A stretch of 64,000 nt of DNA from Pseudooceanicola spongiae (GTDB lineage: Bacteria > Pseudomonadota > Alphaproteobacteria > Rhodobacterales > Rhodobacteraceae), in NCBI RefSeq assembly GCF_014899185.1, contig NZ_CP045201.1:3883501-3947500 (forward strand). Reading direction: 5' to 3'. The position numbers and the translations under genes are program-made. The notes beneath the pieces were generated by a model. It was not told the origin of the DNA and did no database searches. It saw only the letters and a list, made by a program, of their open reading frames with translations. Position 1 is the stretch's first letter; every line of letters begins with the position of its first letter. Positions 10,006-36,297 of the stretch are shown here, one piece after another.

Positions 10006-10878
10006 CTAGCGCAGTTTGCCAATCGCATAGGTCGGGGTCATTTTCTCTTTCTCGATGAACGCGTTGAGGGCATCTGCCTCGGGCTGGTCGGTGGTTTTTG
10101 TTTCTTCCGCCGCCAGGCCACCGGTGATGAACAGGGAATCGATACCCTCGCCCAGAGCGCCCTGAATATCGGTGTGGATGCCGTCGCCAATGGCGAGGAT
10201 GCGCCTGTCGGAGATATCCTTGCCCAGCTTGTTCAGGCGCAGCCGCGCGAGGTCGTAGATCGGGGGATGCGGTTTGCCGAAATAGAGGCTTTCCCCGCCC
10301 ATTTCGGAATAGAGCTTGGCCACCGCGCCGGCGCACCATTCGCGGTGATCGCCACGGTCGACGACGATATCGGGATTGGCGCAGAGCAGCTTGAGGCCCA
10401 TGGTCTTGGCCAGCAACAGCTGCGGGCGCAGAACGCTCGGGTCGGCGTCAGCATCGAAGGGGCCGGTGCAGACGATACCTTCAGCGTCCTCGAGTGCGAC
10501 GCGCTCGATGTGCTGGGGATTATCAAGCGCTTGCAGGGGGGCGAAGAATGGCGCGTCATGCGGTTCGCCGATGTGAAAAACGCGGTGGCCGACGATGCCC
10601 TGGAACATGGCCGAGCGTGCAGAGTCGCCCGAGGTCGCGATGGTGTCCCAGGCGTCGGTCGGCACGCCGAAACCGTCGAGCTGGGTGCGCACCTGTGCGC
10701 GCGGCCGAGGAGAGTTGGTCACCAGAACCACGGTGACGCCGGTTTTGCGCACGGCCTGCAGGGCGGCGACGGCGTCGGGCAGGGCGGTGACGCCATCGTG
10801 CACGCAGCCCCAGAGATCGACGAACATGGCGTCGTAGTCTGCGGAAATCTCGGCGAGAGAGGAAACGATCTGGGTCAT
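10006..10878 (-). CDS. HAD-superfamily class IIA hydrolase (TIGR01459-type)
   Basis: 290 residues. HAD motif I is DLWGCVHDG (nucleophile Asp and acid/base Asp positions), motif II is VLVTNSPR, the Lys motif is in YFGKPHPPIYD and motif IV is AIGDGIHTDIQGA. The order with a capping domain between motifs II and III fits the class IIA group, which in alphaproteobacteria forms a distinct family of unknown phosphatase specificity. ATG 10878 has CGGAG 8 bases upstream; GTG 10887 is too close to that site. Confidence 0.9.
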   Translation of the reverse strand: MTQIVSSLAEISADYDAMFVDLWGCVHDGVTALPDAVAALQAVRKTGVTVVLVTNSPRPRAQVRTQLDGFGVPTDAWDTIATSGDSARSAMFQGIVGHRVFHIGEPHDAPFFAPLQALDNPQHIERVALEDAEGIVCTGPFDADADPSVLRPQLLLAKTMGLKLLCANPDIVVDRGDHREWCAGAVAKLYSEMGGESLYFGKPHPPIYDLARLRLNKLGKDISDRRILAIGDGIHTDIQGALGEGIDSLFITGGLAAEETKTTDQPEADALNAFIEKEKMTPTYAIGKLR

Positions 10879-27522: not shown

Positions 27523-28668
27523 TCAGAGGCTGGCGAGCAGCACGGGTTTGAGGTTTTCCGCCGTCAGGGTGACGGGGTTGCCACCGCAGGAGGGGTCCTC
27601 CAGCGCCATGGCGACGATATCGTCGACGCGGTCATCGGCGACGCCAAGCGCGGAGAGTTTGCGCGGGATGCCGAGCTGATCGTTGAGGTCCTGCACGAAG
27701 GCGCAGAAGCCGTCAAAACCGCCCTGCACGCCGAGGTAGGGCGCGGCGAGGTCAAAACGGTCACGGATCGCATCGGCGTTCAGCTGCAGCACGGCTGGCA
27801 TGAAGACCGCGTTGGTGGTGCCGTGGTGGGTGTTGTAGACCGCGCCGATCGGGTGGCTCAGCGCATGGATCGCGCCGAGGCCCTTCTGGAACGCGGTAGC
27901 ACCCATCATGGCGGCGGACATCATCTGCGCGCGCGCCTCGATATCATTCGGGTCGGTGTAGGCGCGGGGCAGGTTGTCGATGACCAGACGCATCCCCTCA
28001 AGCGCGATGCCCTGCGACATCGGGTGGTAGTGGGGCGAGGAGAACGCCTCGACACAATGGGCAAAGGCATCAAGGCCGGTGCCGGCGGTGATGAACTTGG
28101 GCATGCCCACGGTCAGCTCGGGGTCGCAGATGACGACTGTGGGCAGGACCTTGGGGTGGAAGATGATCTTTTTGACGTGCGTTTCGGAATTGGTGATGAC
28201 CGACGCCCGGCCCACCTCAGACCCGGTGCCTGCGGTGGTCGGCACGGCGACGATGGGCGCGATGCCGGCGGGGTCGGCGCGGGTCCACCAGTCGCCGATA
28301 TCTTCATAGTCCCAGATGGGCCGTGTCTGGCCGGACATGAAGGCGACCATCTTGCCGAGGTCGAGGCCGGAGCCGCCGCCAAAGGCGATGACACCGTCAT
28401 GACCGCCCTCGTGATAGGCCGTGAGGCCCTCGGCGAGGTTCTTTTCGGTCGGGTTGGCATCGACGCCGCTGAACATGGCGCGGCCAAGGCCTGCGGCCTC
28501 GAGCAGGTCCAGCGTGCCTTGGGTGATCGCCATCGAGGCCAGCCCGCGGTCAGTGACCAGCAGGGGTTTGGAGATATTGGCCGCGGCGCAGGCGGCGGCG
28601 ATTTCGGAAATGCGACCGGCGCCGAAGCGGATCGCGGTGGGGTAGGACCAGTTTGCTGTGGGGCTCAT
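27523..28668 (-). CDS. Iron-containing alcohol dehydrogenase
   Basis: 381 residues, group III Fe-ADH. NAD-binding GGGSGLDLGK replaces the usual GGGSxxDxAK; metal ligands are visible in GLDAFAHCVEA (Asp and His), AIHALSHPIGA and NTHHGTTNA. It oxidises an alcohol or reduces an aldehyde in the cytoplasm. It is the last gene of the seven-gene operon from 35313, 12 bases after the aldehyde dehydrogenase, so the alcohol and aldehyde steps are probably consecutive. Confidence 0.93.
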   Translation of the reverse strand: MSPTANWSYPTAIRFGAGRISEIAAACAAANISKPLLVTDRGLASMAITQGTLDLLEAAGLGRAMFSGVDANPTEKNLAEGLTAYHEGGHDGVIAFGGGSGLDLGKMVAFMSGQTRPIWDYEDIGDWWTRADPAGIAPIVAVPTTAGTGSEVGRASVITNSETHVKKIIFHPKVLPTVVICDPELTVGMPKFITAGTGLDAFAHCVEAFSSPHYHPMSQGIALEGMRLVIDNLPRAYTDPNDIEARAQMMSAAMMGATAFQKGLGAIHALSHPIGAVYNTHHGTTNAVFMPAVLQLNADAIRDRFDLAAPYLGVQGGFDGFCAFVQDLNDQLGIPRKLSALGVADDRVDDIVAMALEDPSCGGNPVTLTAENLKPVLLASL

Positions 28669-28680
28669 GGGAGGTTTCTC

Positions 28681-30057
28681 TCAGGATTTGCGGTAGTGGT
28701 GCGACTTGGGACGCGTCAGGGCCAGGAAGCCGAGCGCCGAGAGGCCCGCGCCATGCCCGGTGTCCTTGCAGCCCGTCCAGCAGAGCGCCGGGTCGAGGTA
28801 GTCACAGCGGTTCATGAAGACGGTGCCGGTTTCCAGCTGCGGCGCGATATAATCCATCGCGGCGGCGTCCTTGGTGTAGATCGCGGTGGTCAGGCCGTAC
28901 TTGCAATCGTTCATCATGGCGATCGCCTGATCGTCGTCGGAGACGGACATGATGCCAACCACGGGGCCAAAGCTCTCCTCGACCATGACGTCCATCTCGT
29001 GATTGACGTTGGTCAGGATCTGCGGCGTCAGGTAGGCCCCGCCATCATCGGCCTCCATCTCCTCGATATGGGCGACAGCGCCTTGCGTGACGGCCGAGGC
29101 GATCTGCGCGCGAACGGTGGCGGCGAAGCGTTCATTGGCCATCGGGCCGATGGTGGTTTCGGGGTCCAGCGGGTTGCCGAGGCGCAGGGCCTTGACCCAG
29201 GCGACGGCTTTTTCGACGAAGGCGTCATAGAGGCTCTCGTGGACATAAATCCGCTCGATCCCGCAGCAGCACTGACCGGCGTTGAACATCGCGCCGTCCA
29301 TCAAGCCGTCGACGGCGGCGTCAAGATCGGCATCGGCGCGCACATAGCCCGGGTCCTTGCCACCAAGCTCGGTGGCGACGGGGGTGAAGGTGCCTGCGGC
29401 TGCGTGCTCCATCGCCTGACCGCCGGCGACGGAGCCGGTGAAGTTGACGAAATCGAAGGCGCGGGCGGCGATCAGGTTCGAGGTGGTCTCGTGATCCAGC
29501 ACGAGGTTCTGGAAGACGTCCTCGGGCAGGCCAGCGGCCTCGAACGCCTCGGCCAGATGCTCACCCACCTTGAGGGTCTGAGAGGCGTGTTTCAGCACCA
29601 CCACGTTGCCCGCGATCAGGGCGGGGGCGATGGTGTTGATCGCCGTCATGTAGGGATAGTTCCAGGGCGCGACGACCAGCACGACGCCGTGGGGTTCACG
29701 GGTGATCATGCGGGTGAAGGCGGCGCTGTCCTCGATCACCATGGGGGCGAGGGTCGTTTCGGCGATGTCGGCCATATAGCCCGCGCGTTCGTTGAAGCCG
29801 CCGAATTCGCCGCCATAGCGGATCGGGCGGCCCATCTGATGCGCCAGCTCGGTGGTCATGCGGTCGGTCTGCTGGCCGATGATGGCGACAGCGGCACGCA
29901 CCAGTTCGATACGCTCGGCCATCGGGCGCGCGGCCCAGTCGAATTGCGCGGCGCGGGCGTTGTCGACGGCCATGCCTGCGGCGGCGGGGTCCATGACCTC
30001 GCGCTCAAGATAGACAGACCCGTCGATGGGCGAGATGAGTTTAACGGTCTTGGACAT
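28681..30057 (-). CDS. NAD(P)-dependent aldehyde dehydrogenase
   Basis: 458 residues. PWNYPYMTAINTIAPALIAG (Asn of the oxyanion hole), ELGGKDPGYV (general base Glu) and NAGQCCCGIERIYV (catalytic Cys within a Cys triplet) are present; the C-terminal FMNRCDYLDPALCWTGCKDT is the succinate-semialdehyde/aldehyde group variant. It oxidises an aldehyde to the acid. It begins 2 bases after the glutamine-synthetase-like gene, in the same operon. Confidence 0.93.
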   Translation of the reverse strand: MSKTVKLISPIDGSVYLEREVMDPAAAGMAVDNARAAQFDWAARPMAERIELVRAAVAIIGQQTDRMTTELAHQMGRPIRYGGEFGGFNERAGYMADIAETTLAPMVIEDSAAFTRMITREPHGVVLVVAPWNYPYMTAINTIAPALIAGNVVVLKHASQTLKVGEHLAEAFEAAGLPEDVFQNLVLDHETTSNLIAARAFDFVNFTGSVAGGQAMEHAAAGTFTPVATELGGKDPGYVRADADLDAAVDGLMDGAMFNAGQCCCGIERIYVHESLYDAFVEKAVAWVKALRLGNPLDPETTIGPMANERFAATVRAQIASAVTQGAVAHIEEMEADDGGAYLTPQILTNVNHEMDVMVEESFGPVVGIMSVSDDDQAIAMMNDCKYGLTTAIYTKDAAAMDYIAPQLETGTVFMNRCDYLDPALCWTGCKDTGHGAGLSALGFLALTRPKSHHYRKS

Positions 30058-30059
30058 GC

Positions 30060-31418
30060 TCAGGCTCTTTCAAATCCGCGTTGCAGTTCCCAGTCGGTGA
30101 CGACTGCGTCATAGGCTTCCTGTTCCCAGTCGGCGGCGCGGGCGTAGTGGTCGACCACGTCATCGCCGAAGGTGTCGCGCAGGAAGGTCGAGGTGTTCAG
30201 TGTCTCGCGTGCGGCGCGCAAGGTCGAGGGCACCTCGGGCATCTTGCCCTGTTCGTAGATGTCACCTGTAATCGGCGCGTCAAGGGTCAGCCCGTCTTCG
30301 ATGCCCTTGATACCTGCGGCCAGTTGCACGGCCATGGCGAGGTAGGGGTTCAGGTCCGAGCCGCCAATCCGGCACTCCATCCGAACGGATTTGGAATTCG
30401 CGCCGCAGAGGCGGAAGCCCGCGGTGCGGTTGTCCACCGACCAGACCGATTTCGTGGGCGCAAAGCTGCCCGCCTGAAAGCGTTTGTAGGAGTTGATATT
30501 GGGCGCGAGGAAGTAGGTGTAATCGGGGGCGTATTTGATCAGGCCCGCGCAGTAGCTTTTCATCATCGACGACATGCCGAGGTCGTCTTCGGGGTCATAG
30601 AAGGCGTTCTTGCCCTCGGCCCACATCGACTGGTGCACATGCGAGGAGCTGCCGACGCGGTCGCGGTGCCATTTCGGCAGGAACGACGCGGCATGCCCCT
30701 TCATCAGCGCGATGTCCTTGATCGCGAGCTTGGCGATGGTGTGGTAATCGGCGCAGGCCAGAGCCTCGGCGTATTTGATGTTCAGCTCTTCCTGACCGGC
30801 CTCGGCCTCGCCCTTGGAGTTCTCGATGGGGATGCCGGCGGCGTAGAGGGCGTTGCGCACCGGGCGCATCACGACCTCATCACGCAGGGTCAGCTGCATC
30901 GAGTAGTCGGCGTTATGCGGCGCGAGGGTTTCCAGCGCAGTGAAGCCGGATTTGCGGATCTCGTCATAGCTCTTCTCGAACAGGAAGAACTCAAGCTCGG
31001 TCGCCATCATGGGGGTCAGGCCCATCTCGGACAGGCGGGCGATCTGGCCCTGCAGCATGGCGCGGGGCGAATGGGCGACGGGGGCGTGGTGGTGATCCAG
31101 CACATCGCAGAGCACCATGGCCGTGCCCTCGATCCACGGCACGGGGCGCAGGGTGGAGAGGTCTGGCTGCATGATGTAGTCGCCGTATCCCGCCTGCCAG
31201 CTGGTCGATTTGTAGCCATCGACCGTGTACATTTCCAGGTCGGTGGCCAGCAGGTAGTTGCAGCAGTGGCTTTCGGACCATGCGCTGTCGACGAAGTGGG
31301 CGGCGTGAAAGCGTTTGCCCATCAGGCGGCCCTGCATGTCCACGATGCAGGCCAGAACCGTGTCGATGGTGCCGTCTGCGACCTGTTGTTTCAAAGCGTC
31401 GAATGTCAGTTGTGCCAT
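30060..31418 (-). CDS. Glutamine-synthetase family gamma-glutamyl-amine ligase
   Basis: 452 residues. Typical GS-III/PuuA-like features: TELEFFLFEKSYDEI (metal Glu), GQEELNIKYAEALACAD, GSSSHVHQSMW (ATP/Glu site His), and RMECRIGGSDLNPYLA. It lacks the adenylylation loop of GlnA, as do ligases that attach glutamate to amines (PuuA, IpuC, GlnA4). The operon context (alcohol and aldehyde dehydrogenases, formylglutamate-hydrolase-like gene) points to catabolic gamma-glutamylation rather than ammonia assimilation. ATG 31418 has AGGAAGAAAG upstream. Confidence 0.88.
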   Translation of the reverse strand: MAQLTFDALKQQVADGTIDTVLACIVDMQGRLMGKRFHAAHFVDSAWSESHCCNYLLATDLEMYTVDGYKSTSWQAGYGDYIMQPDLSTLRPVPWIEGTAMVLCDVLDHHHAPVAHSPRAMLQGQIARLSEMGLTPMMATELEFFLFEKSYDEIRKSGFTALETLAPHNADYSMQLTLRDEVVMRPVRNALYAAGIPIENSKGEAEAGQEELNIKYAEALACADYHTIAKLAIKDIALMKGHAASFLPKWHRDRVGSSSHVHQSMWAEGKNAFYDPEDDLGMSSMMKSYCAGLIKYAPDYTYFLAPNINSYKRFQAGSFAPTKSVWSVDNRTAGFRLCGANSKSVRMECRIGGSDLNPYLAMAVQLAAGIKGIEDGLTLDAPITGDIYEQGKMPEVPSTLRAARETLNTSTFLRDTFGDDVVDHYARAADWEQEAYDAVVTDWELQRGFERA

Positions 31419-31496
31419 GGCGTCTTTCTTCCTGCCTTTCAGCATAAGGGGGCGACCCTGAGGCCGCCCCTGAGAGATGTTTTGCGGCGAACCCTA

Positions 31497-32543
31497 TCAG
31501 AAGGTGTAGGGCGGGCCTGCTTTGGACACGACGTCGTTGTAGTCGCGGAAGATCTTGACGATCTTGGCCGCGGTTTCGCCTTCTTCGGCCATCTCGTCCC
31601 AGAACTTGACGGCGGCGTCTTCGACGGTCTTCCATTCGTCCTGCGGGATCGAGGTGAGTTCGAGCTTGTCGCCCTGCGCGCGCAGACGCGCTTCGCCGCC
31701 CCAATACCACTGGTTGCGGTAGGTGTGGCTGGCCTCGATCGCGGAGGAGACGATGACCTTGAGGTGTTCCGGCAGATCGGCCCAGCGTTGCTGGTTGACG
31801 AAGAACGACCCGATCCAGGCGCCGGAGATGTTGTTGGTCAGGAAGTAGTTGGTCACGTCTGCCCAGCCGACGGTGTAATCTTCAGTGATGCCGGACCATG
31901 CCATGCCGTCGAGTTCACCGGTTTGCACGGCGACCTGTGCATCCTCGTAAGGAATGTTCACCGGAACGACGCCAAACTGCGACAGGAAGCGGCCAGCGGT
32001 CGGGAAGGTATAGAGCTTGAGCCCGTCCATGTCGGCCAGCGAGGTGATCGGCTTGACGGTGTTGAAGTTACAGGGGTCTTGCCCGGCGGCGGAGAGCCAC
32101 TTGACGCCGACCTTGGCGTATTCTTCTTCCCAGATCTCGGCCAGGCCGTACTGGTTGAACAGCACGGGGACGTCGAGGGAATGCTTGGTCGCCAGCGGGA
32201 AATATCCGCCGAAGTTGCGCACCGGGGTGGGCGAGGCCATCGAGTCATCGTCCGAGTGCACACCGTCGAGGGTGCCGCGTTGCAGGGCCTGAAACAGCTC
32301 GCCCGTGGGGACGATCTGGTCGGCGTAGTAAAGCTCAATCTCAAGCTCGCCTTGTGCGGCGGCGTTGATCGCGTCGATGGCGGGTTTGGTGACTTCCTGA
32401 CCGAGGGCCGAGCCGGCGTAGGTCTGGAAGCGCCACTTGATCGCCTCTTGTGCGCGCAGGATGCCGGGGGCGGCGAGGGCAGCGGGCGCGGCCATGGCGG
32501 CGCCCCTCAGAAAGGACCGTCTGTTGGTTGGTTTGGTGGTCAT
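31497..32543 (-). CDS. TRAP transporter substrate-binding protein (DctP family)
   Basis: 348 residues. Twin-arginine signal peptide (NRRSFLRGAAMAAPAALAAP) followed by a DctP/TAXI-like solute-binding fold: ALQRGTLDGVHSDDDSM and VAVQTGELDGMAWSGITED are the strand motifs preceding the conserved binding-site Arg/Trp region. It captures the operon's substrate in the periplasm and passes it to DctQM. It is encoded between dctM and the glutamine-synthetase-like gene. Confidence 0.93.
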   Translation of the reverse strand: MTTKPTNRRSFLRGAAMAAPAALAAPGILRAQEAIKWRFQTYAGSALGQEVTKPAIDAINAAAQGELEIELYYADQIVPTGELFQALQRGTLDGVHSDDDSMASPTPVRNFGGYFPLATKHSLDVPVLFNQYGLAEIWEEEYAKVGVKWLSAAGQDPCNFNTVKPITSLADMDGLKLYTFPTAGRFLSQFGVVPVNIPYEDAQVAVQTGELDGMAWSGITEDYTVGWADVTNYFLTNNISGAWIGSFFVNQQRWADLPEHLKVIVSSAIEASHTYRNQWYWGGEARLRAQGDKLELTSIPQDEWKTVEDAAVKFWDEMAEEGETAAKIVKIFRDYNDVVSKAGPPYTF

Positions 32544-32598
32544 GTGATAACTCCCATGTTGCGGTTGTAGGCGCCCTGCTTGGGCAGGGTTCTTGTGG

Positions 32599-33924
32599 TT
32601 AATTCGCGTAGACCATGTTCGGCAGCCATGTGGCGATGCCCGGAAAGACCATGACGACGATCAGCGCCAGGATCATCACGGCGACGAACGGGAAGATCGA
32701 CCCGTAGATGTCGCGCAGGGTGATTTCCGGCGGCGCCATGGCGCGCATCAGGAACAGGTTATAGCCGAAGGGCGGGGTCATGTAGGCAATCTGGCAGGTG
32801 ATCGTATAAAGCACGCCGTACCAGACCAGATCGAAGCCGAGCGCGCCGACAAGCGGCACATAAAGCGGCGCCACGATCACCAGCATCGCGGTGTCGTCCA
32901 GAAAACTGCCCATGATCAGGAAGCTGAGCTGCATCAGGATCAGGATGACCCATGGGCTGAGGCCAAGCTGTTCGGTGAACAGGCTTTCGATCGCCTTGAC
33001 CGCGCCGAGGCCGTCGAAGACCGCACCGAAGGCCAGCGCCGCGAGGATGATCCACATGAACATGCAGGAGATAGCGAGGGTCTGGCGGGTGGCGGTTTCG
33101 AACACGCGCCAGCTCATCCGGCCTTTCAGCAGGGCGGCGACGAAGGCGGCGAGGGCGCCGATGGCCGAGGCTTCGACCAGCGAGGTGTAGCCCATCACGA
33201 AGGGCACCATCATCACCATGAAGATACCCAGCGGCAGGGTACCGGCCCAGAGCAGGCGCATCTTTTCGCGCCGCGGGATGTCGCGTTCCTCGGCGCTGAG
33301 GGCGGGGCCGAGCGAGGGGTTCAGGGCGCAGCGGATGACGATGTAGAGGATGAACATCCCCGCCATCAGGAAGCCCGGGCCGATGCCCGCCAGCCAAAGC
33401 TGGCCGACCGGCTGACGCGCGATCATGGCATAAAGCACCAGCACGACCGAGGGTGGCACGAGGATGCCGAGCGACGATCCCGCCTGAATGACACCGGTGA
33501 CCATCTTCTTGTCGTAGCCGCGTTTCAGCAGCTCCGGCAGGGCGATGGTGGAGCCGATGGCCATGCCCGCGACAGAAAGGCCGTTCATCGCCGAGACGAG
33601 GACCATCAACCCGATGGTGCCGATGGCGAGGCCGCCGCGAATGCCGCCCATCCAGACGTGGAACATGCGATAGAGGTCGTCGGCAATCTTGCTCTCGGAC
33701 AGCACGTAGCCCATGAAGACGAACATGGGCAGCGTCAGCATCGGATACCATTTCATCAGCTTCATCAGCGCGCCGTAGCCGAGGTCGAAGCCACCCTTGT
33801 CGCCCCAGAGGCAGAGCGCGGCGACGACGGCGACAAAGCCGATGGCGCCAAAGACCCGCTGGCCGGTCAGCAGCATCAGCATCATCGAGCTGAACATCAG
33901 CAGGGCGATCAGTTCATATGACAT
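32599..33924 (-). CDS. TRAP transporter large permease (DctM)
   Basis: 441 residues, about 12 membrane helices. MSYELIALLMFSSMMLMLLT at the start and LGILVPPSVVLVLYAMIARQ in the middle are the DctM signature. It is the transport channel driven by an ion gradient. The start is 1 base after the stop of dctQ, so the two are coupled. Confidence 0.95.
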   Translation of the reverse strand: MSYELIALLMFSSMMLMLLTGQRVFGAIGFVAVVAALCLWGDKGGFDLGYGALMKLMKWYPMLTLPMFVFMGYVLSESKIADDLYRMFHVWMGGIRGGLAIGTIGLMVLVSAMNGLSVAGMAIGSTIALPELLKRGYDKKMVTGVIQAGSSLGILVPPSVVLVLYAMIARQPVGQLWLAGIGPGFLMAGMFILYIVIRCALNPSLGPALSAEERDIPRREKMRLLWAGTLPLGIFMVMMVPFVMGYTSLVEASAIGALAAFVAALLKGRMSWRVFETATRQTLAISCMFMWIILAALAFGAVFDGLGAVKAIESLFTEQLGLSPWVILILMQLSFLIMGSFLDDTAMLVIVAPLYVPLVGALGFDLVWYGVLYTITCQIAYMTPPFGYNLFLMRAMAPPEITLRDIYGSIFPFVAVMILALIVVMVFPGIATWLPNMVYAN

Positions 33925-33925
33925 A

Positions 33926-34519
33926 TCAGACCGCTTCCCCGCGTATGCGCAGGATATCCTTGAAGAATTCCGACAGCACCTGCAGCAGCATCAGAAACAG
34001 CCCGATGCAGGTGATCAGCTTGATCGGCCACATGATGGGCCGCCATGAGGAGGAGGAGACCTCGATATAGCCCAGGACCTCAGACGCCGCGTCGGGGCCG
34101 CCGGTGACAAAGGCACCGATCAGCCTGGCGAAGAAGCTGAAGGGCGAGCCCATGAAATTGCCGAGCGAATAGGCGAGGGAGGCGAGGCCGCCCCAGATCA
34201 GCACCCCGAGGTAGAAGATCAGGCAGAACACGGTCAGCGCGTCGAGGCAGGCTTTCCTGTGGTCCGAAAGCTCGGCGTAGAACAGGTCCATCCGGACGTT
34301 GCTGCCGAGCTGGATCGAGTAGGGCCCGCCGAGGATGTAGTAGGCGACCATGACGAACTGCGCGGTTTCCAGCGTCCACATGGCGGGGGAGTAGAAGACC
34401 TTGGAGACGGTGGACCACAGCAGGATGCCCATCAGGCCGAAGAGGGCGAACATCATCACCCGCCCGAGGCCGTAGTTGAACAGGTCGACAAAGCGGATGT
34501 AGCCGCGCATCAGTCTCAT
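33926..34519 (-). CDS. TRAP transporter small permease (DctQ)
   Basis: 197 residues, four membrane helices. WTLETAQFVMVAYYILGGPY and RMDLFYAELSDHRKACLDAL are the DctQ pattern. It is larger than minimal DctQ proteins because of an inserted loop (GNFMGSPFSFFARLIG to SSSSWRPIMWPIK). The ATG overlaps the stop of the preceding gene by 4 bases. Confidence 0.92.
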   Translation of the reverse strand: MRLMRGYIRFVDLFNYGLGRVMMFALFGLMGILLWSTVSKVFYSPAMWTLETAQFVMVAYYILGGPYSIQLGSNVRMDLFYAELSDHRKACLDALTVFCLIFYLGVLIWGGLASLAYSLGNFMGSPFSFFARLIGAFVTGGPDAASEVLGYIEVSSSSWRPIMWPIKLITCIGLFLMLLQVLSEFFKDILRIRGEAV

Positions 34520-35313
34520 GCTGCACCGCCCCGTGACAGGTGTTTCTCGGCGCAGCGTGTCGCCAGTTGCGCCAGCGACCGGCTGAGCGCACCGCAGAGC
34601 TGTTCGGCGACGGCCGCGACGGAGGCAGCATCGGCCAGCAGGTCGTTGCGCACCTCGATCATGACGTTCAGGCGGCCGCGGGGAATGGCGTGGGTGGCCA
34701 GCGTGTGCGTGACGCCGTCGGTGGCGGAATAGGGGGCGTTGAGCTCGGCTTTCAGAGGTCCGCTCCAGTTTTTCATCATCGCCGTGGCGAGGCGGGCGTC
34801 GCTGTCGTGCAGCAGGCCGATTTCGGTGCTGCGCGGCGTGCCGTGCCAGACGGGGGTGAAGGAATGCACCGTGACAACCGCGCCGCCGTGACGTTCCAGC
34901 ACCGCCGACAGGGCGGTCTGGAAGGGGCGGTAGATTGCGTCGGTGCGGGCGGCGCGCTGGGCGGGGGTGAGGGCGTGGTTGCCCGGCACCTCGACCACTT
35001 CGCTGCGTTCGGGCATGGCGGTGGGCGCTTCGGGCGGGCGGTTGCAGTCGTAGACGAGGCGCGAGATACGGCCCGCCACCAGCGGCGCATGCAGGCGTTC
35101 GGACATCGCCAGCGCGAGGTCCAGCGCGCCGGGATCCCAAGCGGCATGGCTGAGGCGATCGGCCTGCGACAGCCCCAGACCGTCCAGCGAAACCGGGATC
35201 GTGGCGCTGGCATGTTCGCAGACCAGCACGACCGGGCCGGTGCCGCAGGGGTTTGTCACCGCCACCGCAGGGCCTTCATCTTGGTTAAGAATTTGTGAGT
35301 CACTGCCTGTCAT
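34516..35313 (-). CDS. N-formylglutamate amidohydrolase family protein
   Basis: 265 residues of the HutG/FGase family: VLVCEHASATIPVSLDGLGL, AAWDPGALDLALAM, VYDCNRPPEAPTAMP, VVTVHSFTPVWHG (metal His) and MIEVRNDLL. The family cleaves N-acyl bonds of glutamate derivatives. Being first in an operon with a gamma-glutamyl ligase, it could hydrolyse the final gamma-glutamyl or N-substituted glutamate product rather than formylglutamate; this is inference. The stop codon overlaps dctQ by 4 bases. Confidence 0.9.
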   Translation of the reverse strand: MTGSDSQILNQDEGPAVAVTNPCGTGPVVLVCEHASATIPVSLDGLGLSQADRLSHAAWDPGALDLALAMSERLHAPLVAGRISRLVYDCNRPPEAPTAMPERSEVVEVPGNHALTPAQRAARTDAIYRPFQTALSAVLERHGGAVVTVHSFTPVWHGTPRSTEIGLLHDSDARLATAMMKNWSGPLKAELNAPYSATDGVTHTLATHAIPRGRLNVMIEVRNDLLADAASVAAVAEQLCGALSRSLAQLATRCAEKHLSRGGAA

Positions 35314-35356
35314 GGCCGCAGAAGAGAACGGCACCGGGGTCGAAGTCAACGCATTT

Positions 35357-35375
35357 TTGTAGACATGGCTACAGA
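35357..35375. promoter_or_regulatory. Candidate RpiR operator
   Basis: TGTAG and CTACA form a 5-bp inverted repeat with a 6-base spacer in the divergent region between the operon (start 35313) and the regulator. An in-frame ATG (35365) falls inside the palindrome, which argues that it is not the regulator start. The arms are short, so confidence is low. Confidence 0.35.
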
Positions 35376-35418
35376 GCGCGAATATTTTGTAACCAATCAG
35401 ACAAGGGGAGTGCAGAAC

Positions 35419-36297
35419 GTGGCAGAGGCAGGCGCAAAGCAGGTCAAGGCGCTGATACTGGCGGCCACGACGCGCCTGACGGCCAGCGAAAAACGGGTCG
35501 GAGAGGTGATCCTGAAGGACTATCCGATGGCGGGGATGCAGTCGGTCACCAAGCTGGCAGAGCTGGCCTCGGTCTCGACCCCGACCGTTATACGCATGGC
35601 GCGCAAGCTGGGTTTTGAGGGGTTTCCAGAACTCCAGAACGCTCTGCGCAGTGAGGTGGCCGAGCGCATCAAGGCACCGTCGCTGAAGCGGGACGCGCGC
35701 TCCGCCGCGAGCGAGGGCGAGGGGCATGTGCTGCATCGCTTTACCGAGGCCGTCATCCGCAATCTGACCGGCTCGCTGGAGCGGCTGGACCCGGTGGTCT
35801 TTGACCGGGTGGCAGATTTGCTGGCCGATACCTCTCGCCCTGCCTATTTCGTGGGCGGCCGGATCACGCGGGCGAATGCCAGTTATTTTCACAATCACAT
35901 CCAGATCATCCGCGCCAACGTCACGCTGCTGAGCCAGACGCCGAACGTCTGGCCGCATTACCTGCTGGATATGGACGCGCGCTCGGTCCTGATCGTGTTC
36001 GACATCCGCCGGTACGAGAAGGATTTGCAGAAGCTGGCGGAGCTGGCGCAGGAACGCGGCGCGACGGTGGTGCTGTTCACCGATCAGTGGGGCTCGCCCA
36101 TCGCGCAGGTGGCAGAGAACGTCTTTAACCTGCAGGTCGAGGCGCCGTCGAACTGGGACAGCACCATCGCCATCATGGCGGTGGTCGAGGCGCTGATCGC
36201 CGAGGTGCAGGCCAAGCGCTGGGATGACACGCAAGGCCGGCTGCAGGAACTCGAGTCGATGTTTTCCACCACGCGGGTGTTTCGCAACTTTACCTGA
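35419..36297 (+). CDS. RpiR/MurR family transcriptional regulator
   Basis: 292 residues from GTG 35419, which has AAGGGGAG 8 bases upstream; an in-frame ATG at 35365 would add 18 residues but lacks a ribosome binding site. N-terminal HTH_6 domain (LTASEKRVGEVILKDYP, SVTKLAELASVSTPTVIRMA) and C-terminal SIS domain (AYFVGGRITRANASYFHNHI, VLIVFDIRRYEKD). SIS domains sense phosphosugars or amino-sugar-like ligands; the regulator is divergent from the amine/alcohol operon and most likely controls it. Confidence 0.9.
   Translation: MAEAGAKQVKALILAATTRLTASEKRVGEVILKDYPMAGMQSVTKLAELASVSTPTVIRMARKLGFEGFPELQNALRSEVAERIKAPSLKRDARSAASEGEGHVLHRFTEAVIRNLTGSLERLDPVVFDRVADLLADTSRPAYFVGGRITRANASYFHNHIQIIRANVTLLSQTPNVWPHYLLDMDARSVLIVFDIRRYEKDLQKLAELAQERGATVVLFTDQWGSPIAQVAENVFNLQVEAPSNWDSTIAIMAVVEALIAEVQAKRWDDTQGRLQELESMFSTTRVFRNFT

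Follow-up and report, generated by a model that had tools for sequence, protein, structure and literature searches.

Introduction

Phaeobacter sp. MED193 carries the closest described counterpart of the locus treated here, an operon for ethanolamine (Westermann et al. 2023, PMC10132767). In the available part of that paper, the genes are given as an RpiR regulator, a gamma-glutamylglycine amidohydrolase (GGAH), EtoV, EtoW, EtoX, an ethanolamine gamma-glutamylase (ETAGA), and two dehydrogenases, named gamma-glutamylacetaldehydeamide dehydrogenase (GAADDH) and gamma-glutamylethanolamide dehydrogenase (GETADH). The locus tags rise from 10021 to 10056 in the order RpiR-GGAH-EtoV-EtoW-EtoX-ETAGA-GAADDH-GETADH. 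Five of the eight operon proteins were up on phosphorylethanolamine, EtoX bound ethanolamine with a Kd of 7.88 ± 1.88 μM, and etoX was placed in ca. 5 to 10% of ocean bacteria; for the pathway, the authors refer to Vetting et al. 2015 and to C. salexigens and A. tumefaciens. In the present study, a stretch of 64,000 nucleotides from Pseudooceanicola spongiae (contig NZ_CP045201.1, positions 3,883,501 to 3,947,500; hereafter “the window”) was analyzed, and an eight-gene operon in it was compared to these systems.

Two further sources, both available in part, bear on the comparison. The solute-binding protein Csal_0678 binds ethanolamine and is without the equivalent of Arg-147, which serves to bind carboxylates in other tripartite ATP-independent periplasmic (TRAP) binding proteins (PMC4646407). 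A 2019 paper on GlnA4 of S. coelicolor describes that ligase as characterized, regards the pathway of C. salexigens as predicted in silico, and suggests a member of the formylglutamate amidohydrolase (FGase) family for the release of glycine and glutamate (PMC6529630). The proposed reactions of the GlnA4 pathway are those considered here, with dehydrogenase SCO1611, aldehyde dehydrogenase SCO1612, GlnA4 (SCO1613), and the FGase-family protein SCO1615. This system, which was compared by its description, differs in being actinobacterial, and no TRAP importer is named in that description, as far as it was available.

Gene content and order of the operon

The window very probably holds an operon for the uptake and catabolism of ethanolamine of the published EtoVWX/gamma-glutamylation type. 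It comprises seven intact minus-strand genes between 27523 and 35313 and a divergent RpiR gene (Table 1). An earlier, sequence-only reading of this DNA had listed a TRAP importer, a ligase, an iron-containing alcohol dehydrogenase, an aldehyde dehydrogenase (ALDH), an FGase-like enzyme, and the divergent regulator, and this content was borne out. All eight reading frames are open (open-reading-frame list; translation without stops), and every product scores over its Pfam curated cut-off (Fe-ADH, Aldedh, Gln-synt_C, DctP, DctM, DctQ, FGase, and HTH_6 with SIS). The alcohol dehydrogenase reaches 160 bits against PF00465 and 142 bits against PF25137, and the ALDH 393 bits against PF00171. Transcription on the minus strand runs from the FGase-family hydrolase through DctQ, DctM, DctP, the glutamine-synthetase-like ligase, and the ALDH to the alcohol dehydrogenase. 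The genes are closely packed: the hydrolase and DctQ genes overlap by 4 bases, and the gaps that follow are 1 (DctQ-DctM), 55 (DctM-DctP), 51 (DctP-ligase), 2 (ligase-ALDH), and 12 bases (ALDH-alcohol dehydrogenase). For the hydrolase, the ATG at 35313 was used as the start, and a longer frame in the list (34516-36234) was set aside. The host genome is a single contig of 4.37 Mb and is 93.59% complete.

The gene set and its order (RpiR, FGase, EtoV, EtoW, EtoX, ligase, ALDH, iron-containing alcohol dehydrogenase) are those of the MED193 locus-tag list; the eight genes were compared by name and locus-tag order, as given in the available part of the paper (PMC10132767). The MED193 amidohydrolase is placed in the FGase family from its position and from the available part of the GlnA4 paper (PMC6529630). 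Ethanolamine binding and induction have been shown elsewhere, in homologues.

For P. spongiae, we infer the enzyme activities, the order of the reactions, and the binding of RpiR as follows. The TRAP system would import ethanolamine, which the ligase, using ATP, would join to the gamma-carboxyl group of glutamate. The alcohol would be converted to the aldehyde by the iron-containing alcohol dehydrogenase, and the aldehyde to gamma-glutamylglycine by the ALDH. The FGase-family enzyme would cleave the latter into glycine and glutamate, so that glutamate would be recycled and no free aldehyde would be released. RpiR would control the operon, probably via the near-palindrome in the divergent promoter.

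The sequence-only reading had arrived at much the same chemistry, namely gamma-glutamylation of an alcohol-bearing amine, oxidation in two steps, and deglutamylation by an FGase-family enzyme. This part agrees with the published scheme as available (PMC10132767, PMC6529630), with ethanolamine as the best candidate. The locus cannot, however, be called a separate, poorly described variant, since the same gene list and order were published with proteomics and a binding constant, as the accessible text shows (PMC10132767). With the MED193 operon and the GlnA4 proposal, as far as these were available, the pathway has already been published, and so has a deglutamylase of the FGase family. The system had thus been described before, and the proposed chemistry was right in outline.

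The TRAP importer and its binding protein

The best Protein Data Bank (PDB) match of the window DctP was 4uab/4xf5 (E = 5.6e-149; 500 bits for 4uab). The structure tables give molecule names only, and 4uab is taken by us to be Csal_0678 with bound ethanolamine. Where, by our reading, most TRAP binding proteins have their carboxylate-binding Arg, the window protein has Tyr178, and the position is Phe or Tyr in all 74 aligned DctP rows, the window included. The site was equated with Arg-147 of SiaP from the 2zzv alignment and, in part, on our own assumption. The window DctP therefore falls, on the presumed identity of 4uab and the presumed equivalence to Arg-147, in the Csal_0678/EtoX group, including the missing carboxylate Arg.

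These results bear on a reading in which the same chemistry serves another small amino alcohol (3-aminopropanol or 1-amino-2-propanol) and ethanolamine is a secondary substrate. Promiscuity is possible, as a matter of general knowledge, in such ligases and dehydrogenases, and some relatives have other import arrangements (S. meliloti has an amino acid permease, and Ruegeria conchae lacks the TRAP genes). However, the DctP belongs to a group with measured ethanolamine binding, and the ligase is nearly exclusive with EutB, the ethanolamine ammonia-lyase (see below). By established chemistry, moreover, the oxidation of 1-amino-2-propanol yields a ketone, which would leave the ALDH idle. Another amino alcohol as the main substrate is accordingly considered quite improbable.

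The glutamine-synthetase-like ligase

The ligase scores 320 bits against PF00120, and its best PDB matches were 5dm3 (667 bits) and 11zs (584 bits); 5dm3 is presumably the ligase neighbor of Csal_0678 in C. salexigens. Its identity is 24% to E. coli GlnA, 26% to E. coli PuuA, and 55-94% to the 22 relatives used in a tree. It falls below the cut-offs for gamma-glutamylputrescine synthetase (NF045547, 204.3 bits vs. 650) and for glutamine synthetase, type I or III (TIGR00653, 229 vs. 429.15; TIGR03105, 230.7 vs. 469.6). The tree had 28 rows: ligases from 17 of the 80 loci described below, 5 plasmid relatives, the window, and 5 references (E. coli PuuA, E. coli GlnA, and three paralogues from the host genome). 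A starred branch (99/97) sets the window ligase group apart from the five references. Very long branches are seen in three reference rows (PuuA and two ligases from contig segment L119 of the host), and the placement of these is unsure according to a warning of the tool; only the separation of the group from the references was therefore used. The comparison with PuuA that the earlier reading had proposed was thereby made, against E. coli proteins and the host's own paralogues, and the label “PuuA-like” turned out to be inexact. That the ligase makes gamma-glutamylethanolamide is predicted from homology.

A polyamine pathway of the Puu type would draw on the low-scoring match of the ligase to the gamma-glutamylputrescine synthetase model (204 bits), and E. 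coli PuuABCD resembles the window operon in its strategy (glutamylate, oxidize, deglutamylate). The low identity to PuuA and the separating branch, with three of its five references long-branched, speak against this pathway, and the oxidase and hydrolase of PuuABCD are of other kinds: neither a PuuB-type FAD oxidase nor a PuuD-type hydrolase is among the eight genes. The host genome also has a separate Puu-like cluster (L119:6809-11718, at ca. 1.83 Mb of the genome) that comprises a DAO-type oxidase, a class I glutamine amidotransferase (GATase)/C26 protein, and a pair of PuuA-like ligases, and it would be the natural place for polyamine use. On the ligase score, the tree, and this cluster, a putrescine or polyamine pathway was disfavored and is given practically no chance.

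The FGase-family hydrolase

The hydrolase belongs to the Pfam FGase family (PF05013, 125.9 bits vs. a gathering score of 28.9), and its best PDB match was 2odf (Atu2144; E = 1.3e-76). The closest structures to the window proteins thus seem to be of the C. salexigens/A. tumefaciens kind (2odf being Atu2144, and 4uab and 5dm3 as we presume); the hosts of that pathway differ from the present one in lineage. In 63 aligned rows, the near-invariant residues (at least 97%) are His34, His56, Asp60, Arg85, Asp89, Asn91, Arg92, His150, Arg161, His208, Glu220, and Arg222, a set that is consistent with a conserved catalytic site.

Membership in PF05013 would also suit an enzyme of histidine breakdown that acts on formylglutamate and has no relation to the ligase. 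The host genome has three PF05013 proteins, which score 20 (the window protein), 117.5, and 24.6 bits against the HutG model (TIGR02017, cut-off 278.75); because all three are below the cut-off, no other obvious HutG was found in the host, a point in favor of this role. The score of the window protein itself, however, is far under the cut-off, the gene order with the ligase is kept in 64 of 80 loci, and the published counterpart MED193_10026 rises with its operon, according to the part of the paper at hand (PMC10132767). Histidine degradation was disfavored on the HutG score and the synteny, and we regard it as very improbable. For gamma-glutamylglycine, the role of the hydrolase in the published accounts, in their available parts, was proposed from genomics and proteomics (PMC10132767, PMC6529630).

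The ammonia-lyase route in the host and the family

No EutB match was found in the host genome (93.59% complete), and the ethanolamine ammonia-lyase route was rejected for it. Glycine decarboxylase is present. The two routes were compared across 295 family genomes, in which the ligase was counted as present at an E value of 1e-120 or better and EutB at its cut-off; the ligase and EutB surveys were taken to cover the same genomes from their equal settings, size, and shared labels. The ligase was found in 180 genomes and EutB in 19 (20 matched; G046 was under the cut-off and was dropped). An earlier EutB survey had 11 genomes over the cut-off among 149. Only 2 of the 19 EutB genomes have the ligase vs. 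178 of the 276 others (Fisher p = 3.9e-6, odds ratio 0.065, uncorrected for relatedness). The two are G022, with a partial EutB match in a genome that is 85% complete, and G239. Since relatedness is uncorrected, this near-exclusion is support for an ethanolamine function and not proof of it.

The divergent promoter

The near-palindrome TGTAGACATGGCTACA is the sole match to TGTAG-N6-CTACA in the window, and the pattern had no matches in 100 shuffles. Among 70 other divergent RpiR-FGase regions, the strict pattern occurs in 3, all of them Pseudooceanicola loci; the looser TGTA-N8-TACA occurs in 24 of the 70 vs. 2 sites in the remaining 1.29 Mb of those loci. RpiR probably binds at this candidate operator (35358-35373). 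The ATG listed for RpiR sits inside the near-palindrome, and the proposed start may therefore be wrong; a GTG in the same frame, at 35410, may be the true start. Scans for generic promoters and terminators were not clearly over chance (2 vs. 1.7 expected; 7 vs. 4.8 expected).

Table 1. Features of the operon in the window (position 1 is the first nucleotide of the window).
Feature	Position	Strand	Basis
RpiR-family regulator (HTH_6 + SIS), divergent	35365..36297	+	Pfam; start possibly GTG 35410
Near-palindrome TGTAGACATGGCTACA, candidate RpiR operator, divergent promoter	35358..35373	.	Pattern search
FGase-family hydrolase, predicted gamma-glutamylglycine amidohydrolase (GGAH)	34516..35313	-	PF05013; PDB match 2odf; positional counterpart MED193_10026
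TRAP small permease DctQ, EtoV counterpart	33926..34519	-	Pfam; published gene list
TRAP large permease DctM, EtoW counterpart	32599..33924	-	Pfam; published gene list
TRAP solute-binding protein DctP, EtoX counterpart	31497..32543	-	PDB match 4uab/4xf5; aromatic Tyr178
Glutamine-synthetase-like ligase, predicted ethanolamine gamma-glutamylase	30060..31445	-	PF00120; 5dm3; tree; positional counterpart MED193_10046
Aldehyde dehydrogenase, predicted gamma-glutamylacetaldehyde(amide) dehydrogenase	28681..30057	-	PF00171; positional counterpart MED193_10051
Iron-containing alcohol dehydrogenase, predicted gamma-glutamylethanolamide dehydrogenase	27523..28668	-	PF00465; PF25137; positional counterpart MED193_10056

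Conservation and variant loci

Synteny was scored by tblastn with the window proteins (E 1e-8, more than 60 bits, more than 40% coverage), thresholds at which a very distant homologue would be scored as absent. The 80 loci examined were chosen as the best of 204 relatives, and the sample thus leans toward close relatives; the closest named one found has a ligase 94% identical to that of the window (Pseudooceanicola sediminis). The full eight-gene order and orientation were found in 64 of the 80 loci, a recurrence that shows the arrangement not to be due to chance. By our reading, nine of the remaining 16 loci run into contig ends (L033, L036, L050, L059, L060, L067, L073, L083, and L084), and seven are variants (L029, L043, L051, L052, L053, L055, and L080). 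In L029 (Roseobacter sp. H9), no homologue of the iron-containing alcohol dehydrogenase follows the ALDH, although the locus is uncut there; the rest of the operon is full. No TRAP genes were detected in L051. L053 is cut upstream and was judged on its downstream side only. L055 (Shimia litoralis) has a different ALDH (31%) upstream, where genes for a phosphodiesterase-family protein, a class III aminotransferase, and an EamA protein also lie. The upstream side of L080 holds an MFS protein and components of an ABC transporter. The short loci L088-L116 (ca. 4.3 kb) were left out of the synteny count; in three of them (L096, L102, and L113), a gene is missing beside the ligase. L096 and L051 have contigs of equal length and probably come from one genome.

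Six plasmid relatives, from 25 listed of 687 records, were also examined. The full TRAP layout occurs in Paracoccus denitrificans and Ruegeria sp. B32. Ruegeria conchae has the enzymes with neither TRAP nor RpiR genes adjoining, and on pSymB of S. meliloti an amino acid permease takes the place of the TRAP genes. On pAA03 of Aminobacter aminovorans (L123), RpiR and the four enzymes directly adjoin bhcRABCD, an adjacency that would fit glycine as the product. The bhcRABCD genes are those of the beta-hydroxyaspartate cycle, annotated for glyoxylate catabolism, and the plasmid was typed as conjugative. A ligase relative (55% identity) on a plasmid of Paraburkholderia sabiae (L126) lies in a quite different neighborhood, annotated with a gamma-glutamyl-GABA hydrolase family protein, aminoethylphosphonate transaminase, fatty acid desaturase, and homoserine O-succinyltransferase; the ligase family perhaps has a different, even biosynthetic, use there.

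Discussion

Several observations weigh against the assignment to ethanolamine. In the profile search, the enzymes of the operon received no name from a curated NCBIfam model: the best such model for the iron-containing alcohol dehydrogenase is 4-hydroxybutyrate dehydrogenase (361 bits vs. 500 needed) and that for the ALDH is succinic semialdehyde dehydrogenase (296 bits vs. 521 needed). Because neither dehydrogenase is over the cut-off of any such model, their substrates are assigned from context. Five of the 80 loci (L043, L052, L053, L055, and L080) have no ALDH between the ligase and the iron-containing alcohol dehydrogenase, and three of these (L043, L055, and L080) are also without an FGase homologue within the locus; the route is thus not everywhere complete in one place. 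The palindrome is absent from 46 of the 70 divergent regions, and 98 of the 295 family genomes have neither the ligase nor EutB over the cut-off. Of the MED193 Eto proteins, EtoX is the only one assayed in the available part of the paper, in which Fig. 5 is headed “Predicted” pathways (PMC10132767). No enzyme assay for the operon in Pseudooceanicola was found in the literature examined, which was not searched by organism name.

The ethanolamine assignment is nevertheless held to be very probable, on the gene order, the binding-protein group, and the near-exclusion with EutB. Beyond it, we lean, with some reserve, toward a joint proposal: that the FGase-family protein is separate from HutG and dedicated to the hydrolysis of gamma-glutamylglycine, and that the core module (hydrolase, ligase, ALDH, and iron-containing alcohol dehydrogenase) is a movable cassette with exchangeable importers that in some lineages has no ALDH or hydrolase of its own.

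Relative to the published accounts, in their available parts, the analysis adds the near-exclusion of the ligase and EutB in the family, a conserved candidate operator for RpiR, and loci without ALDH or TRAP genes. Membrane lipids are a source of ethanolamine, a nutrient that is widespread in the sea, and the window adds a Pseudooceanicola host to the known carriers of the ethanolamine operon.

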